Assembly: GCF_947494055.1 (NCBI RefSeq)
Contig: NZ_CANLTR010000030.1
Span: 1 to 41,046, forward strand
Length of the DNA: 41,046 bases
DNA from: an uncultured Jannaschia sp.
GTDB lineage: Bacteria > Pseudomonadota > Alphaproteobacteria > Rhodobacterales > Rhodobacteraceae
Reading direction: 5' to 3'
In this document: piece after piece, positions 1 to 6,671 of the stretch
Position numbering within the stretch: position 1 is the first letter of the stretch
How the letters are laid out: each line of letters starts with the position of its first letter
Notes under the pieces: generated by a model
Seen by the model: only the letters and a program-made list of their open reading frames with translations
The model's database searches: none
Told to the model about the DNA's origin: nothing
Program-made: the position numbers and the translations under genes

Positions 1-7
1 CGCACTC

Positions 8-23
8 CCCATCTTGAGATGGG
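8..23. promoter_or_regulatory. Short palindrome, possible operator
   Basis: CCCATCT, two central bases, then AGATGGG form 7-bp inverted arms. The site lies about 90 bp ahead of the direct-repeat array upstream of the Fic gene. It could be a protein-binding site or the terminator hairpin of a gene outside the window; no T-run follows it. Only the symmetry is seen, and the role is a guess. Confidence 0.3.
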
Positions 24-112
24 TAGATCTCGCAATCAGGCCGATGCCCGACAACGTGGGCCGCAGCCACCGCTTACGTTCCGGGCGGCTCGCTGCGAGC
101 ATTCTCGGTACT

Positions 113-223
113 TACTTGAGTTTGGCTTAAGAAATATACTTGAACTTGGACTGTAATATTTACTTCACAATGGACGACGCCATTTACTTGCGGTTGGACA
201 TATCTATATACTTATACTTGGAC
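113..223 (+). repeat. Five direct repeats with exact 24-bp period (putative operator array)
   Basis: Five 15-bp units begin at 113, 137, 161, 185 and 209, so the period is exactly 24 bp. The consensus is TACTT-N5-TGGAC. The first copy ends TTGGCT instead of TGGAC; the others keep both blocks. The 9-bp spacers are AT-rich and differ from each other, so the conserved blocks look like binding sites rather than a simple satellite. The array ends 23 bp before the start codon of the AbiEi-Fic gene, across the likely promoter. AbiEi-type antitoxins of known systems bind repeats in their own promoters and repress, so autoregulation by the N-terminal half of the downstream protein is the simplest inference. 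Plasmid-type iterons are an alternative, but no Rep gene is nearby. Confidence 0.85.
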
Positions 224-246: not shown

Positions 247-1764
247 ATGGCAGACAAACGGGAGATCTTGGCCGGCGCCTTGGAAGCCCTGCACACCTTG
301 CAGAAGCAAGGACATCTTGTGGTTCGCAGCGGCGAAATCGACCCGGTGCGGATCAAGGCACTAAGGAAGGCTGGCTATCTTCAGCCCATCATGAAGGGCT
401 GGTATCACCTGTCGGACCCCAGTTCGCGTCCCGGTGACACGACGCCGTGGACGATGAGCTACTGGTCATTTGTCCAGAGATACTGCGAGCATCGCTTTGG
501 TAGCGACTGGGTTCTCAGTCCTGAAATTTGCCTCGATCTGCATACTGGATCGCAGGTGCCGGCTACCCAGGTGATCGTGCATGCCCCTAAAGGAGGCAAC
601 AATGCCGTCGAACTCCCTGGCAAGCGGTCGCTCTTTGATCTGAGGGTCAGGGAGCTTCCTGAGCAGGATCGGAGGACGCAGCTACCGAACGGGCTGAGGG
701 TCTACACTCCGGAGGCCACGCTGATCCATATGGCAGAGAATTGCTATCATACGCAGGCTATGTCAGTTGCAGCGCTAATAGGCAGCTACCGAAATGTCGA
801 TGCCCTGTTGCGCGCGGTGGTTGGCGGGGCGCACAGGCGCCCGGGTAACCGCCTGGTTGGCGCGTTCAAGCACTTGGGGATGGACGACCACTCCAAGCGC
901 CTGGCCGATGGCATGCGCCGCGCAGATATGGATCTGAGGAATGAAAACCCCTTTACTGGGGAAGGCATTGCTGTTGTTGCTGGCGCGGCCCCGATCTCGA
1001 ACATGTTGCGAGCAATATGGCAGAGGGATCGACAGGCGATCATTGACCTGCTACCGGCCCTGGGAGGGCCTGTGGATGTCGACGAGGTGCTTTGGCAGAT
1101 CGACGATGTCTACACTCATGATGCCTGGAACTCGCTCTCGATCGAAGGCTATAGGGTCTCCGAAGAGCTGATCGAGAAGATTCGCAGCGGAACCTGGGAC
1201 CCTGAGGCCGACAAGTCGGACGCCACCTCTCGTGATGCCATGGCCGCGAAGGGCTACTGGAATGTTTTCCAGTCTGCCCGCGAGGTGGTGAAAACATCCA
1301 TCGAGCGAGGTGAGCCGGTCTCGGTGCGCGACAATCTAAGCGATTGGTATCAAGATCTCTTCGAGCCGTCGATCGACGCGGGCATTCTAACGCGAGGCCA
1401 ACTGATCGGATATCGCAATCACCCGGTATTCATTCGCACAGCCAATCATGTGCCTCCGGCGTGCGAAAAGCTCATGGATGCGATGGAGACCTACTTCGAT
1501 CTCCTTGACGAGGAGGAGCACCCCGGAGTGCGTGCGGTGCTTGGTCACTGGCTTTTGGGCTACATCCACCCTTATCCGGACGGAAACGGGCGCCTCGCTC
1601 GCTTCGTGATGAACGCTGTGCTCGCGAGCTCGGGTTATCCATGGGCTGTGATCCGGCTCGATCAGCGGAAGCGCTATATGCAGGCTCTCGATGCCGCGAG
1701 CTTTGGAGGAGACATCACTCCCTTCGCGAAGCTGATTAGCGAGCATCTTGGCAATGAGCCCTAA
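247..1764 (+). CDS. AbiEi-like / Fic domain fusion protein
   Basis: 505 residues. Residues 1 to about 60 resemble the AbiEi winged-helix start (ALRKAGYLQPIMKGWYHLSD). The following roughly 170 residues look like the AbiEi nucleotidyl-transferase-like antitoxin body, including TPEATLIHM. The C-terminal half is a Fic domain with the motif HPYPDGNGR at 441-449, matching HxFx(D/E)GNGR; Fic enzymes usually transfer AMP to a hydroxyl side chain. Residues 296-301 (SLSIEG) match the (S/T)xxxE(G/N) inhibitory motif, here on the N-terminal side of the Fic core as in class II Fic proteins. A weak GGGAC precedes the ATG. The gene stands alone, directly behind the 24-bp repeat array. Domain assignment is confident; the target, and whether it acts as a toxin, are unknown. 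Confidence 0.9.
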   Translation: MADKREILAGALEALHTLQKQGHLVVRSGEIDPVRIKALRKAGYLQPIMKGWYHLSDPSSRPGDTTPWTMSYWSFVQRYCEHRFGSDWVLSPEICLDLHTGSQVPATQVIVHAPKGGNNAVELPGKRSLFDLRVRELPEQDRRTQLPNGLRVYTPEATLIHMAENCYHTQAMSVAALIGSYRNVDALLRAVVGGAHRRPGNRLVGAFKHLGMDDHSKRLADGMRRADMDLRNENPFTGEGIAVVAGAAPISNMLRAIWQRDRQAIIDLLPALGGPVDVDEVLWQIDDVYTHDAWNSLSIEGYRVSEELIEKIRSGTWDPEADKSDATSRDAMAAKGYWNVFQSAREVVKTSIERGEPVSVRDNLSDWYQDLFEPSIDAGILTRGQLIGYRNHPVFIRTANHVPPACEKLMDAMETYFDLLDEEEHPGVRAVLGHWLLGYIHPYPDGNGRLARFVMNAVLASSGYPWAVIRLDQRKRYMQALDAASFGGDITPFAKLISEHLGNEP

Positions 1765-1860
1765 CAGATTGCGCGGATTTTTCGCGCCAGCACGCTCCGA
1801 GCCGTGCTTCAGAACGCAAAATAGTCACCCAAAGAGGGACGCCATCAACATTTACCGTCA

Positions 1861-1937
1861 GGGGCTGGGCGCCAGCCCCCGGGCGTTCCGGCGGCAGCCG
1901 GCCGCGTGTCCCGGGCGCCCCGGCATTCGCACCGGGG
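1861..1937. terminator. Two GC-rich hairpins between convergent genes
   Basis: GGGGCTGG/CCAGCCCC with a 3-nt loop (1861-1879) and CCCCGG/CCGGGG with an 8-nt loop (1918-1937) lie between the Fic gene on the plus strand and the end of the minus-strand array. Neither is followed by a clear T-run, so they may block polymerase with Rho rather than act as classical terminators. The rest of 1765-2018 holds nothing I recognise. Confidence 0.35.
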
Positions 1938-3402: not shown

Positions 3403-4389
3403 CTATTTGCGGATATGGTCGGGTGTGTCCGGGTGCCCCAGGAGATGAGCCGTATCCGTATGGGTTCGGGCGATCGCGGAAGCGGGCAGGACGAAATCGT
3501 TGTTCGGGTCCGACCCGTCGGCGACATCGACGGCATGATCGTCGACCCATGCCTGCGGATGAAAGCGCAGCTTCAGCAACGCGCCCGCCTGGGGCAGGAT
3601 CTCGAGCTTTTCGGGATCTTGGAAGCACAGCATGCAGTGGCAATAGAACGCCCGTGCGTCCGGCACGACCACGGGGGCGGACGCACGCCCGTGCCGTCCG
3701 GGATCCATGAAGATCGCGGGCGCGTCGCGCGCGATACCCGCATGGTCGAAGACATCCGCCGCCTTGCGGCGGGCGTCTGGCTCGAGGACGCGGTGCAGGG
3801 CGTCTGCGTAGTGATCCACGACCTCTTCGACCAGCCCCTGGCGTCCGACCTCCGCCAGCAGGCGGCCGAGGTGGCCATGCGTATCCTGCATGACGATGTC
3901 ACGCGCGGCGGTGTGGATCACGTTTTCGTCGAGCTCGACATGCGTGAGCAGGCGTTCCTCCAGCAACGCGGTGACGGTGGCGTCGCCGTCGGCGACGAGG
4001 CCCAACGCATCGTGGACGATGTCCTGAACGCTTAACACTTCGCCCACGTCACCGTGGATCGTCTCGGAGTTCGGCGCGGTGCTCGAGGGCGCGGTCGAGG
4101 GCGCAACCGGGGGCGCAATCGGGGGCGCAATCGGGGGCGCAATCGGACCGGACGCGAGACCGGGCAGCTCGATGCCGGGCTGCACGCGGAGCCCGTTCGG
4201 CGCATTCGTAATGTGGCCCCAGTCATGGCCGGGGCCGGACACGGCGCAGGCGATGGCGTTGAGGATCGCGTTCTTGGAGAGGCGGCCGGCCCGGGCCGTC
4301 TCGAGGATCCGGTCGGCCGCGTCCGAGATGCGGTCGGCGCGCAGCGCCAGGAGAGGGGCGGGAGCGCCGGATTTGGTCTTGCGAGACAT
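3403..4389 (-). CDS. Hypothetical 328-residue protein with shared N-terminal module and Pro-rich linker
   Basis: The start at 4389 is chosen for AAGGA eleven bases upstream. Residues 18-60 form a helical module ending SGPGHDWGHI that matches residues 13-55 of the 432-residue protein at 10852-12150. Residues 82-106 are a Pro/Ala/Ile-rich linker made of repeated PIAP units. The C-terminal region (about 115-328) is mostly helical, then carries a Cys/His cluster FYCHCMLC that could bind metal, and ends in an acidic part. The module resembles the short N-terminal helical pair (A-L-x-x-x-A ... G-x-x-x-W-x-x-L) seen in many plasmid and integrative-element proteins. That comparison is from memory and is weak. 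Function unknown. A leader of about 320 nt precedes it. Confidence 0.7.
   Translation of the reverse strand: MSRKTKSGAPAPLLALRADRISDAADRILETARAGRLSKNAILNAIACAVSGPGHDWGHITNAPNGLRVQPGIELPGLASGPIAPPIAPPIAPPVAPSTAPSSTAPNSETIHGDVGEVLSVQDIVHDALGLVADGDATVTALLEERLLTHVELDENVIHTAARDIVMQDTHGHLGRLLAEVGRQGLVEEVVDHYADALHRVLEPDARRKAADVFDHAGIARDAPAIFMDPGRHGRASAPVVVPDARAFYCHCMLCFQDPEKLEILPQAGALLKLRFHPQAWVDDHAVDVADGSDPNNDFVLPASAIARTHTDTAHLLGHPDTPDHIRK
4084..4143. repeat. Five 12-bp tandem repeats coding the Pro-rich linker
   Basis: Units of 12 bp start at 4084, 4096, 4108, 4120 and 4132. The last three are identical (CGGGGGCGCAAT) and the first two differ at two or three bases. They encode PIAP-type units on the minus strand. 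Because 12 is a multiple of three, gain or loss of units changes linker length without breaking the frame. Confidence 0.8.
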
Positions 4390-4670: not shown

Positions 4671-4708
4671 CCGGGCGGCCCGGACCATAGCAAAAGGCGC
4701 GGCCTCTC

Positions 4709-4975
4709 CTATCGCGTGGCGGATGCGGCCGACGCTTTCGAGCGCCGCTTCGACGCGCGATGCGTCCGGTAGGCCTCTACGCCGACGCCGAAGGCCAGGA
4801 TGAGATTGATGCCGCCCGTGACCAGGACCAGAATGGTCACCACGTCGTCATAGCGGTTGTCGAGCATGCGGGCCTGCACGAAATAGACGAAGAGCAGGAT
4901 GTTGAAGACGGCCAGCGCCGCGGAAGCCAGGATTTCGGTCAGGCTCCGTCCGTCGGTTCGGGATCGCGTTGTCAT
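4709..4975 (-). CDS. Small two-helix membrane protein, 88 residues
   Basis: The ATG at 4975 follows CAGGACACCCG. Two long hydrophobic segments (LAVFNILLFVYFVQA and VVTILVLVTGGINLILAFGVG) are joined by a short acidic loop (DNRYDD). A basic tail rich in Arg, Lys and Ser follows. The expected topology is two membrane helices with the charged tail in the cytoplasm. No family recognised. It is followed by the 12-bp hairpin at 4639-4670. Confidence 0.75.
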   Translation of the reverse strand: MTTRSRTDGRSLTEILASAALAVFNILLFVYFVQARMLDNRYDDVVTILVLVTGGINLILAFGVGVEAYRTHRASKRRSKASAASATR

Positions 4976-5198
4976 CGGGTGTCCTGTCGTGACGTGAATG
5001 CAGAATGGTCGTTGAATCTCCGGCCGGCAAGACGCCGATCCGCTTCGGGCCTGCCGTCAGGTTCGGCGATCTTCCTCGCGGGCCGCTTCCCAGGCATCCT
5101 CGGTAGCAGTAGCTTCCCGCGGGAACGAGGCTCTCGTCGCCGCCGGACGCGGCGAAGCGGGCATCGGCGGCGGCAGGGCTCGAATCGTATTCGGTCAT
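4848..5198 (-). CDS. Doubtful small frame with good ribosome site, possibly frameshifted
   Basis: GGAGACACGCC precedes the ATG at 5198. The first 28 codons (MTEYDSSPAAADARF...) look coding. After about 5115 another frame reads better (TATEDAWEAAREEDRRT, then stop), so the intact form may be a protein of roughly 45 residues that needs a one-base shift. As it stands the frame runs into the 88-residue gene and ends at 4848. A sequencing error or a small decayed gene are both possible. Confidence 0.3.
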   Translation of the reverse strand: MTEYDSSPAAADARFAASGGDESLVPAGSYCYRGCLGSGPRGRSPNLTAGPKRIGVLPAGDSTTILHSRHDRTPDDNAIPNRRTEPDRNPGFRGAGRLQHPALRLFRAGPHARQPL

Positions 5199-5281
5199 GG
5201 CGTGTCTCCAGCAGGTTTCGGTCGTCCTAAGGGTCGGGGCGTGGCTTCGGCCACCCTGGTCGGGATGCGTCTGCGGCGCCG

Positions 5282-5521
5282 TCAGGCCGCCAGGCGCAGG
5301 TCCGATCCGACGCGGATCGTGCAGTCGAAGAACCCGTAGACCACGTGCCAGGGACCCTGGCTGCCGGCACGGTAATCCTCGGCGATCCGGCTGGCATCGG
5401 CCGGGGAGACGTAGAGGTGCTTCCTGGCGGCCGCGATGGCCTCCTCGATCGTGAAGGGACCCTCCTCGACCTTATTGAGGGGGCGGATGTAGAGCGGGGC
5501 GTCGTTCGGGGCGGTCATCAT
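5282..5521 (-). CDS. Hypothetical 79-residue protein
   Basis: The start at 5521 follows CGGAGACCCAG. The protein is soluble with a helix (PFTIEEAIAAARKHLYV) and a strand-rich C-terminal half (GPWHVVYGFFDCTIRVG). No family recognised. The reading frame is open further upstream to 5602 and beyond, where it continues the frameshifted segment described next, so the true start could be farther 5 prime. Confidence 0.6.
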   Translation of the reverse strand: MMTAPNDAPLYIRPLNKVEEGPFTIEEAIAAARKHLYVSPADASRIAEDYRAGSQGPWHVVYGFFDCTIRVGSDLRLAA

Positions 5522-5697
5522 CTGGGTCTCCGGGTCAATGGATGAGGCAGGGGCTCGGCCCCGTGTGAAGAATGGCGGGGTGAAGAATGGACGGAGGTAC
5601 ATCCGCGCGCCGCACGGAAGGGCCGTGCCGAGCGGGATCGCCGACAGGAGCGCGTCGGGAAGGGCGCGTGCGCGCCCCGGGCGAGGATGTCGATCAT
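5522..5697 (-). pseudogene. Probable frameshifted small gene joined to the 79-residue frame
   Basis: A strong AAGGGAGGG lies six bases before the ATG at 5697. The frame from that ATG starts MIDILARG. Within a few codons the neighbouring frame becomes the better one (ALPDALLSAIPLGTALPCGA) and runs on into the 79-residue gene. One indel in the GC-rich stretch near 5670 would fuse them. It is either a decayed N-terminus or a sequence error. Confidence 0.3.
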
Positions 5698-5710
5698 GCG
5701 GTCCCTCCCT

Positions 5711-5818
5711 TCATCGGGCGTTTGCCTTCCTGTCTGTCTTTCGCGTCCTTGCGCGGCGGGCGGCGGCGAGGTTCAGATCCGGGATATGGGGTCTTCCGAC
5801 CCCCGGGGCTCTCTCCAT
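5711..5818 (-). CDS. Possible 35-residue basic peptide
   Basis: A frame from 5818 to 5711 encodes a peptide whose last 16 residues are mostly Arg, Lys and Ala. It ends fourteen bases before the ATG at 5697. There is no ribosome site: the bases before its ATG are the T-rich tail of the hairpin at 5825-5852, so translation is doubtful. Confidence 0.2.
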   Translation of the reverse strand: MERAPGVGRPHIPDLNLAAARRARTRKTDRKANAR

Positions 5819-5824
5819 GAGAAA

Positions 5825-5879
5825 GGCGCCGGCTCCGCGCGGAGCCGGCGCCGTGATGCGACCGACCCTCCGGTCGGTC
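5825..5879 (-). terminator. 28-bp perfect palindrome plus 8-bp hairpin
   Basis: 5825-5852 is a perfect palindrome built on GGCGCCGGCTCCGC and its complement. On the minus strand it is followed directly by TTTCTC, as expected for a terminator of the 127-residue gene. Just upstream on that strand GACCGACC pairs with GGTCGGTC (5860-5879). The region 5522-5972 otherwise holds only the doubtful small frames listed separately. Confidence 0.6.
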
Positions 5880-5972
5880 CCTGACAGGGAAAAAGCCTCG
5901 CCCGGGATCGGATCACGGGGCTGCCATCGGCGCGGGACGAAACCCTCTTGCCGGCGGGCCGGGTCGGCCCCC

Positions 5973-6356
5973 TTAGAGGAAGGATCGTACGAGCGTCTCG
6001 AACTTGTCGCGTTGCTTCTGGTGGCGTAACGCGCCCTTCTTGACGGATGCGGGACGGGGCGGTCGAGCGACGCCCTTCCTGTCGGCCGCGGCGCAGAGGA
6101 GGGCATAGCTCAGAAGGGCATTCTGCCGGAGCGCGGCGGCTGCGGCTTTTCGCGAAGCCCTGCTGGGCGCGGCGGCCGCGGCTTTTCGCGAAGCCTTGCT
6201 GGGCGCCGCGGGATCAGGCCGCTGCGGGACGGATGCGGGATCCGGCCTGTCCGGCTTGCGTGACAGGAGGGGGTTGCGCACTTCCTGAGGATCGTAGGAC
6301 GACCATTGTCCTCCACGGATCGTGGTGCCGCCGCCGAGATACGAGTTCCGGCCCAT
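5973..6356 (-). CDS. Hypothetical 127-residue Lys/Ala-rich basic protein
   Basis: AGGAAGG eight bases before the ATG at 6356 fixes the start. The N-terminus MGRNSYLGGGTTIRGG is glycine-rich and ordered-looking. The middle holds two 12-residue repeats of the type PS(K/R)ASRKAAAAA encoded by a 36-bp tandem duplication. The C-terminus is helical and basic. Lys/Ala repeats of this type are typical of nucleic-acid-binding tails such as histone-H1-like proteins, so nucleic-acid binding is possible but unproven. A strong palindromic terminator follows. Confidence 0.65.
   Translation of the reverse strand: MGRNSYLGGGTTIRGGQWSSYDPQEVRNPLLSRKPDRPDPASVPQRPDPAAPSKASRKAAAAAPSRASRKAAAAALRQNALLSYALLCAAADRKGVARPPRPASVKKGALRHQKQRDKFETLVRSFL
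6131..6202. repeat. Two 36-bp tandem repeats
   Basis: Units 6131-6166 and 6167-6202 differ at two of 36 positions. Each contains GGCTTTTCGCGAAGCC, itself an inverted repeat around TTTTCGCGAA. They encode the Lys/Ala repeats of the 127-residue protein, in frame. Confidence 0.8.
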
Positions 6357-6488
6357 CGAGATGCCTTCCTGCCTTTCCCGCCCGTTGATTGCTATCACCG
6401 GGGCCGCCGGTTGCACAGCCTCCGGGCGGCTTTCATCCCGAGCCTGGCCGAGGCGGAGGCCGGCTCGACGACGCGCGGGCGCCGGCCG

Positions 6489-6671
6489 TCAGGGAGTCGG
6501 TTCGGACCATTGGAGCACGAGCCAGATGTAGAAGACGTTCGTGGCGACGACCGCGACCAGGCAGCACCCGAAGAACAGCAGGAAGTCCCTGTTGGTTTGT
6601 CGGATCTGCTTGCGCAGGCTCTCGAGGGCATCCTCGCGCAAGGTGTCGGCGTCGTCGTGGCGATCGGGCAT
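6489..6671 (-). CDS. Single-pass small membrane protein, 60 residues
   Basis: GGGGGAAG lies before the ATG at 6671, preferred over the ATG at 6707. The N-terminal half is charged and helical (DTLREDALESLRKQIRQTN). The C-terminal half is one membrane helix (FLLFFGCCLVAVVATNVFYIW). It resembles small YnhF/holin-sized proteins only in layout; no family is claimed. Confidence 0.65.
   Translation of the reverse strand: MPDRHDDADTLREDALESLRKQIRQTNRDFLLFFGCCLVAVVATNVFYIWLVLQWSEPTP

Follow-up and report, generated by a model that had tools for sequence, protein, structure and literature searches.

A direct-repeat array with a conserved 24-bp step upstream of AbiEi-Fic fusion genes: a probable autoregulatory operator

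The window, by which we mean the whole 41,046-nucleotide stretch of DNA analysed here, begins at a contig end (position 1 is G000:C30:1) and carries a gene for a protein with an AbiEi-like N-terminal half and a Fic C-terminal half, preceded by an array of five short direct repeats (Table 1). The starts of the five units are exactly 24 bp apart, at the positions given in the earlier note, and the array ends at 223, leaving the 23 bp before the ATG at 247 that had also been claimed. The same note took TACTT-N5-TGGAC to be common to all five units; this holds perfectly for units 2 to 5, whereas unit 1 keeps only eight of the ten core letters.

Table 1. Coordinates of the array, the fusion gene and associated features in the window
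Feature	Position	Strand	Remarks
Operator unit 1 (putative)	113..127	+	TACTTGAGTTTGGCT, 8/10 core letters
Operator unit 2 (putative)	137..151	+	TACTTGAACTTGGAC
Operator unit 3 (putative)	161..175	+	TACTTCACAATGGAC
Operator unit 4 (putative)	185..199	+	TACTTGCGGTTGGAC
Operator unit 5 (putative)	209..223	+	TACTTATACTTGGAC
Promoter-like site in array	183..212	+	TTTACT, 18 bp, TATACT; 9/12; consensus match only
AbiEi-Fic fusion gene	247..1764	+	505 aa
Predicted winged-helix part, residues 1-57	247..417	+	AlphaFold2 model
AbiEi-like N-terminal region, residues 1-234	247..948	+	model pLDDT 92.2; Foldseek
Class II inhibitory motif SLSIEG, residues 296-301	1132..1149	+	alignment, 66 members
Fic catalytic motif HPYPDGNGRLAR, residues 441-452	1567..1602	+	Pfam Fic, 66-member alignment
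Right terminal inverted repeat of transposon-like unit	1844..1868	-	kept by window

Five in-register copies matching at least eight of the ten core letters are present upstream of the gene, whereas 2000 mononucleotide shuffles of the same DNA never gave more than one. Across the 246 bp upstream of the gene the best period is 24, with 43 of 72 matches, a score that none of 100 dinucleotide shuffles reached (shuffle mean 30.2). The array is absent from the listings of both Tandem Repeats Finder and a general repeat search, presumably owing to the low likeness (about 60%) of adjacent units. The exact unit pattern occurs five times in the 4.7-Mb genome, four times in the array and once elsewhere, and its reversed control also occurs five times; a unit followed by the next TACTT, with up to two mismatches allowed, was found at seven places, four of them in the array, and its reversed control at 14. 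Neither the exact nor the two-mismatch search found a second array in the 4.7-Mb genome, and a regulon reading was rejected on that ground. Elsewhere in the window there is a single near-match to the unit (9/10) inside the gene, at 871-885, as well as two tandem repeats, one of 12 bp at 4083-4146 (5.3 copies) and one of 36 bp at 6123-6211 (2.4 copies).

An AlphaFold2 model of the protein, built from an 18-row alignment, has a pLDDT of 91.6 over the whole chain. With the whole chain as query, Foldseek matched Fic enzymes, FICD first, and with residues 1-234 it returned 6y8q_A (E 2.2e-5), 1zel_A (1.2e-4) and 6y8q_D (6.7e-4), all with a probability of 1.00, although the TM-scores of these top AbiEi-fold matches by query length are only 0.38-0.49; 6y8q is the AbiEi protein of Streptococcus agalactiae and 1zel is Rv2827c, and the best match to any other protein had an E of 0.034. 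The model places a winged helix at the very N-terminus (helix 4-20, strand 25-28, helix 33-42, wing strands 45-49 and 52-55), and this part would be the one that reads the array. In searches by sequence, the Pfam AbiEi models matched none of 66 family members at E up to 1, the N-terminal profile found no PDB sequence with an E below 0.28, and the matches of the window protein in NCBIfam, Pfam, PADLOC and PHROGs were confined to the Fic half (Pfam Fic, E 4.6e-12; best in PADLOC a SoFic model, over residues 286-496 and so the Fic part only, E 2.7e-18). The 66-member alignment, which also underlies the core classes, residue associations, motif counts and set below 80% identity given below, leaves out three interrupted genes (L013, L028, L081) and two near copies (L019 of L011, L035 of L034). 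In it the Fic motif HPFx[D/E]GN[G/K]R is present, with H441, P442, D445 to R449 and R452 invariant in all 66 members and its F position occupied by Y in 51 and by F in 15. The inhibitory motif [S/T]xxxE[G/N] lies N-terminal to it, with S296 and E300 in 66 of 66 and G301 in 65. From the AbiEi-like fold and the intact motifs, the chain is an AbiEi-like half fused to a Fic enzyme of the autoinhibited type (class II), and the label AbiEi-Fic that had been put on it is right by fold and by motifs, despite the lack of a Pfam AbiEi match.

Relatives of this protein were found at 10 loci in genome contigs, at 9 loci in viral contigs and in 79 of 72,556 plasmid records; none was found in 50,697 phage records. 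Among genomes drawn from the same family, class and phylum they occur in 11 of 394, 13 of 385 and 14 of 398, each count including the window's own genome and the first including two relatives without the N-terminus. They range from Roseobacters and Rhizobia to Vibrio, Pseudoalteromonas and Bacteroides (Pseudomonadota and Bacteroidota). The N-terminus could be aligned in 71 loci, the window included, and 70 of these had enough upstream DNA; the relatives among them are 33-98% identical to the window protein. Three loci were left out of this count, L026 and L027 for want of an N-terminal match and L053 because only 67 bp lay upstream. Starts of the relatives were set by rule at the in-frame ATG, GTG or TTG nearest the aligned start, except in L020, L021 and L065, where no start codon fitted and the aligned position was taken.

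All periods from 8 to 60 were scored in the 250 bp upstream of each gene, each against 100 shuffles. The best period was 24 in 53 of the 70 upstream regions, 23 in 7, 48 in 6, 46 in 2, 43 in 1 and 10 in 1, so that 23, 24 or a doubling of either won in 68; 57 had at least 40 of 72 matches, and 64 scored above all 100 of their shuffles (the exceptions being L015, L017, L020, L030, L064 and L075). In 1808 control windows elsewhere in the same loci, these four periods were best in only 167 (24 in 80, 23 in 30, 48 in 49, 46 in 8), and one window had at least 40 matches. Since the 70 include near-identical copies, we counted separately a set of 50 loci kept below 80% identity to one another (pairwise identity with a median of 47% and a minimum of 32%): 24 was best in 40, 23 in 4, 48 in 3, 46 in 2 and 43 in 1, which puts 49 of 50 at 23, 24, 46 or 48, with 46 of 50 above all 100 shuffles. 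Several of the weaker cases sharpen when only the last 170 bp are taken: 24 wins in L064, L030, L075, L015 and L020, which were weak or off in the wider test, and ties with 33 in L017. It also wins there in L039, whose 46-bp signal is a separate tandem repeat, located further out than the array at about 260 to 146 bp before the gene. The loci with a 23-bp (or 46-bp) step are L032, L033, L034, L035, L057, L062, L068 and L072, and L068 additionally shows 47 (23 + 24).

The array does not appear to be a general mark of Fic or of AbiEi genes, a reading that we rejected on finding it absent from nearly all control upstream regions tested. For other Fic genes, 24 was the best period in one of 21, and weakly so (34/72); of the 30 loci taken for this control, 8 had no ORF bearing the search motif and 1 was too short. 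For AbiEi_4 genes, 22 of 30 loci entered, 1 was too short and 21 were scored, of which L121 had 24 as best period (32/72) and L119 a tie of 13 and 23 (38/72); several of these genes match Pfam only weakly, and with starts placed at the first in-frame codon the true ones may lie further down. A profile of the N-terminal subfamily matched 14 of 385 genomes. Thirteen of these matches are the fusion, in the same genomes as the relatives of the class draw, and the fourteenth is a 110-codon fragment with, by eye, three CCTA units 24 bp apart upstream of it. With both control groups nearly devoid of the array, it goes with the fusion among the genes tested.

The earlier note had proposed looking for the same repeats upstream of homologous genes and named their lack as a refutation. 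This check did not refute it, since nearly all relatives tested have the array; what they keep, however, is the spacing and not the letters. Read by eye, the unit is TACTT-N5-TGGAC in the window's clade and TACTTGAA-N2-CAGAC in three of the four units of a Paracoccus locus (L016). Many Rhizobia and Roseobacters have an ACTTG core, often with CA before it, another large group has ACCTA or AGCTAA, the rhizobial plasmid group (L069-L071) has TTAGTG, two Bacteroidota plasmids (L064, L081) have ACGAGTA, and L032-L034 and L072 have AGTAA at a 23-bp step. A script sorted 65 arrays into ACxxG (24), xCTA (17), four smaller classes (13) and none (11). Because the letters differ in this way between clades, the spacing of 24 (less often 23) bp is, on the sequences compared, what the family conserves. 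In 60 arrays, motif similarity correlates with protein identity about as well for the middle region and the Fic domain (Spearman 0.54 for both) as for the winged helix (0.46), and the columns most tied to ACxxG versus xCTA cores are spread all over the protein. The operator thus appears to co-diverge with the protein as a whole, and in these 60 arrays the unit letters could not be assigned to recognition residues, the Fic domain co-varying as much as the winged helix. Palindromic units were also considered, with a mixed outcome: dyad symmetry exceeded that of shuffled columns (p<0.05) in 19 of 50 loci, and the window is not among them, its unit being no more self-complementary than shuffled columns.

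In five relatives (L008, L009, L010, L011 and L013), the array and the gene together make up a unit of 1906-1951 bp with no transposase gene (4695-6645, 4717-6636, 4717-6622, 4717-6633 and 4717-6629, respectively). DNA homology starts and stops sharply at its terminal inverted repeats, and it is flanked in the five genomes by target duplications of 9-12 bp whose sequence varies between genomes and of which one contains a single mismatch. Of the two terminal repeats, the window retains the right one. Stretches of 77 bases from window positions 1-79 are found again, without a difference, at the ends of contigs C63, C52 and C31 of the same genome. The left end thus seems to have given way to another repeated element, which would abut the array some 34 bp before unit 1. 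When 54 of 55 loci were scanned for terminal inverted repeats in other clades (L029 was too short), clear pairs were found only in L008, L009, L011 and L013, and L048, L055 and L062 scored 17/20, 1 or 2 above the shuffled maximum. A 2338-bp element at L148 5064-7401 has the same ends and its own target duplication; within it, an interrupted ORF bears a weak resemblance to IS1 transposases (E 8.5e-8; 32 bits, where the cut-off is 100), and the element may be related to the one that mobilises the array-gene unit. On a Sulfitobacter dubius plasmid, L142 6001-6200 is 94% alike to the left end of the unit and by eye holds one leftover array unit; this site, without an annotated Fic gene, is a relic. 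In three rhizobial plasmids (L069, L070 and L071), the gene sits inside the conjugation region, flanked on one side by a TraH-family gene and on the other by a small HTH gene adjoining traM.

Plasmid iterons are tandem sites of about similar spacing. Together with the presence of relatives in plasmid records, this might suggest that the array is bound by an unrelated host factor, such as a nucleoid protein or a plasmid replication or partition protein that reads iterons. We think this very unlikely, as the array is found directly upstream of this gene in two phyla, whether on genomes, plasmids or viral contigs, and as its letters are specific to clades while the spacing is one and the same; nor did the searches of the window's own genome find a second array.

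The window and the five mobile copies can be aligned without gaps over their last four units. Among these six close copies, 5 of 40 columns in the TACTT and TGGAC elements vary, as against 31 of 56 of all other columns (Fisher p 1.6e-5), which bears out the earlier claim that these are selected sites with varying spacers. A decaying tandem duplication without function would fit the differences in copy number among relatives, whose best segments hold 3 to 8 copies by a rough rule, and the single unit retained by the Sulfitobacter dubius relic. It would not be expected to conserve the core while leaving the spacers free, or to retain a 24-bp step while the letters change; the contrast between core and spacer led us to reject a satellite or slippage array, whose probability we put as next to nil.

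The promoter-like site of Table 1, one found as against a mean of 0.3 in shuffles, has its predicted -10 overlapping the start of unit 5. In the set of 50 loci such sites were found in 19, as against 7.0 of 50 expected from shuffles, and in 17 of the 19 the site overlaps the array; these consensus matches thus occur in fewer than half of the arrays. Activators can sit upstream of a -10, which is where most of the window array lies relative to the predicted one, and the units might instead be activator sites or elements of a leader RNA. However, occupancy of an array that overlaps the -10 would block polymerase, and the predicted leader would be only about 28 nt long; we find this alternative to a repressor operator very improbable.

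Our preferred reading, which we regard as probable, is that the array is an autoregulatory operator on which one winged-helix monomer per unit binds cooperatively, head to tail, and shuts off the Fic gene. The AbiEi-like winged helix at the N-terminus of each monomer would recognise one unit, and the fixed 24-bp step would set neighbouring monomers in a single head-to-tail geometry, leading to cooperative binding over the promoter. Occupancy of the array would then shut off the gene and keep the autoinhibited (class II) Fic AMP-transferase scarce, the outcome being tight negative feedback on a potentially toxic enzyme. We infer that this protein is the binder, that it binds as one monomer per unit and cooperatively, that it represses, and that it AMPylates and is toxic. 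The direct rather than inverted order of the units means that each monomer would meet the next head to tail, and a step kept strictly while the letters drift points to a protein-protein contact of fixed geometry. S. agalactiae AbiEi, described as monomeric, binds cooperatively to 23-bp sites in its own promoter and represses it (PMC7319586, PMC3985639), and one such monomer on each unit would suit a step of 24 bp. The earlier note had rightly put the step at just over two helical turns: 24/10.5 gives 2.29 turns, which rotates neighbours by about 103 degrees per unit. A wrapped geometry, of the kind that the note thought this rotation would suit, is only one way to use it. Counting against the operator reading, the known AbiEi and Rv2827c sites are inverted and the units in the window are direct, and cooperativity is not general among proteins of this fold, as Rv2827c shows. 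The same holds for several results given above: the co-variation of unit class with the whole protein, the 11 of 65 arrays outside any core class, the dyad symmetry in 19 of 50 loci, the six of 70 loci that do not exceed all their shuffles, and the promoter-like sites in fewer than half of the arrays.

A bolder reading, which we hold to be unlikely, makes the array also a scaffold on which the oligomeric state of the Fic domain is determined, so that array-bound protein would be non-AMPylating or deAMPylating and the DNA would act as an antidote. Loss, damage or titration of the array would then release the AMP-transferase, and the 24-bp step would be conserved because it fixes a protein-protein interface rather than a DNA letter code. 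FICD, also class II, is reported to switch by oligomeric state (PMC6826200), and DNA-induced dimerisation is reported to toggle CbFic2 of Coxiella burnetii from AMPylation to deAMPylation, with its authors speculating the same for CccR (PMC10628234). The inhibitory motif lies in the same chain as the predicted DNA-binding part, the array moves together with its gene on transposon-like units, and relatives are found on plasmids. On the other side, dimerisation of Sofic is reported to be indispensable for toxicity, which is of the opposite sign (PMC12249575), and the CccR authors reportedly concluded that regulation and toxicity are independent (PMC10628234). Moreover, a handful of sites per cell would hold only a handful of molecules, and autorepression alone would account for the conserved spacing. 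It seems doubtful that we are looking at a one-gene, one-protein toxin module with the array as both antidote and sensor, in which head-to-tail assembly on the units would repress the gene and also keep the Fic domains in an inactive oligomer.

Operators are usually traced through their letters. For the proposed autoregulatory operator, the letters change between clades, yet from Roseobacters to Bacteroides the step remains 24 or, less often, 23 bp, and it is the geometry that is conserved. A period of 23 or 24 upstream of a Fic gene could therefore serve as a simple signature for finding members of the family, which offers a natural series on how a repressor and its sites co-diverge under a fixed architecture. 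It is also a direct test case for DNA-templated assembly controlling a class II Fic protein, a point that the authors of the CbFic2 work left open for CccR (PMC10628234).

Fic proteins that repress their own genes and autoregulation by AbiEi are already known. An AbiEi-Fic fusion with a phased direct-repeat operator that keeps its spacing longer than its letters was not found among the matches listed in the open-access literature (subscription papers and preprints lie outside this scope). The fold of the N-terminal half is shared with AbiEi and Rv2827c, antitoxins of type IV AbiE systems. Rv2827c, too, represses its own promoter through 23-bp sites, with no or negative cooperativity (PMC7319586). 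For both proteins the sites overlap the promoter and monomers bind them (PMC7319586, PMC3985639). As described there, the sites of these proteins form inverted-repeat pairs (either 23-3-23, or two pairs 4 bp apart, each with an internal gap of 13 bp), whereas those in the window are direct repeats, and no paired 23-bp inverted-repeat operator of the type IV AbiE kind was seen in the window. The toxin of those systems is a DUF1814 nucleotidyltransferase encoded by a separate gene, whereas here a single chain carries Fic as its C-terminal half.

Similar in its catalytic half is CccR of Yersinia pseudotuberculosis, a class II Fic protein with a DNA-binding domain that represses its own promoter (PMC9755527). 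It is described as a dimer with a C-terminal HTH that binds one inverted repeat with a 26-bp spacer, in contrast to the N-terminal AbiEi-like region and direct array found here; neither a C-terminal HTH nor a spaced inverted-repeat operator was seen in the window protein and its array. CbFic2 and SoFic likewise combine a class II Fic domain with a winged helix, but theirs is a C-terminal wHTH paired with an N-terminal DUF4172 domain, and no tandem operator is described in the parts of that account cited here (PMC10628234). Two further proteins offer parallels for the array itself. BldC forms head-to-tail multimers on direct repeats (PMC5859096), although it is a 68-residue MerR-like protein that uses 9-bp repeats and regulates many genes, unlike AbiEi-Fic. 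RptR, a defence-island repressor, binds with positive cooperativity to direct repeats that overlap the -10 (PMC12255303), but these are 9-bp repeats, each with a 6-bp palindrome, bound by a homodimer encoded by a separate regulator gene. As these two are described, cooperative binding on direct repeats exists, as our preferred reading of the array would have it.
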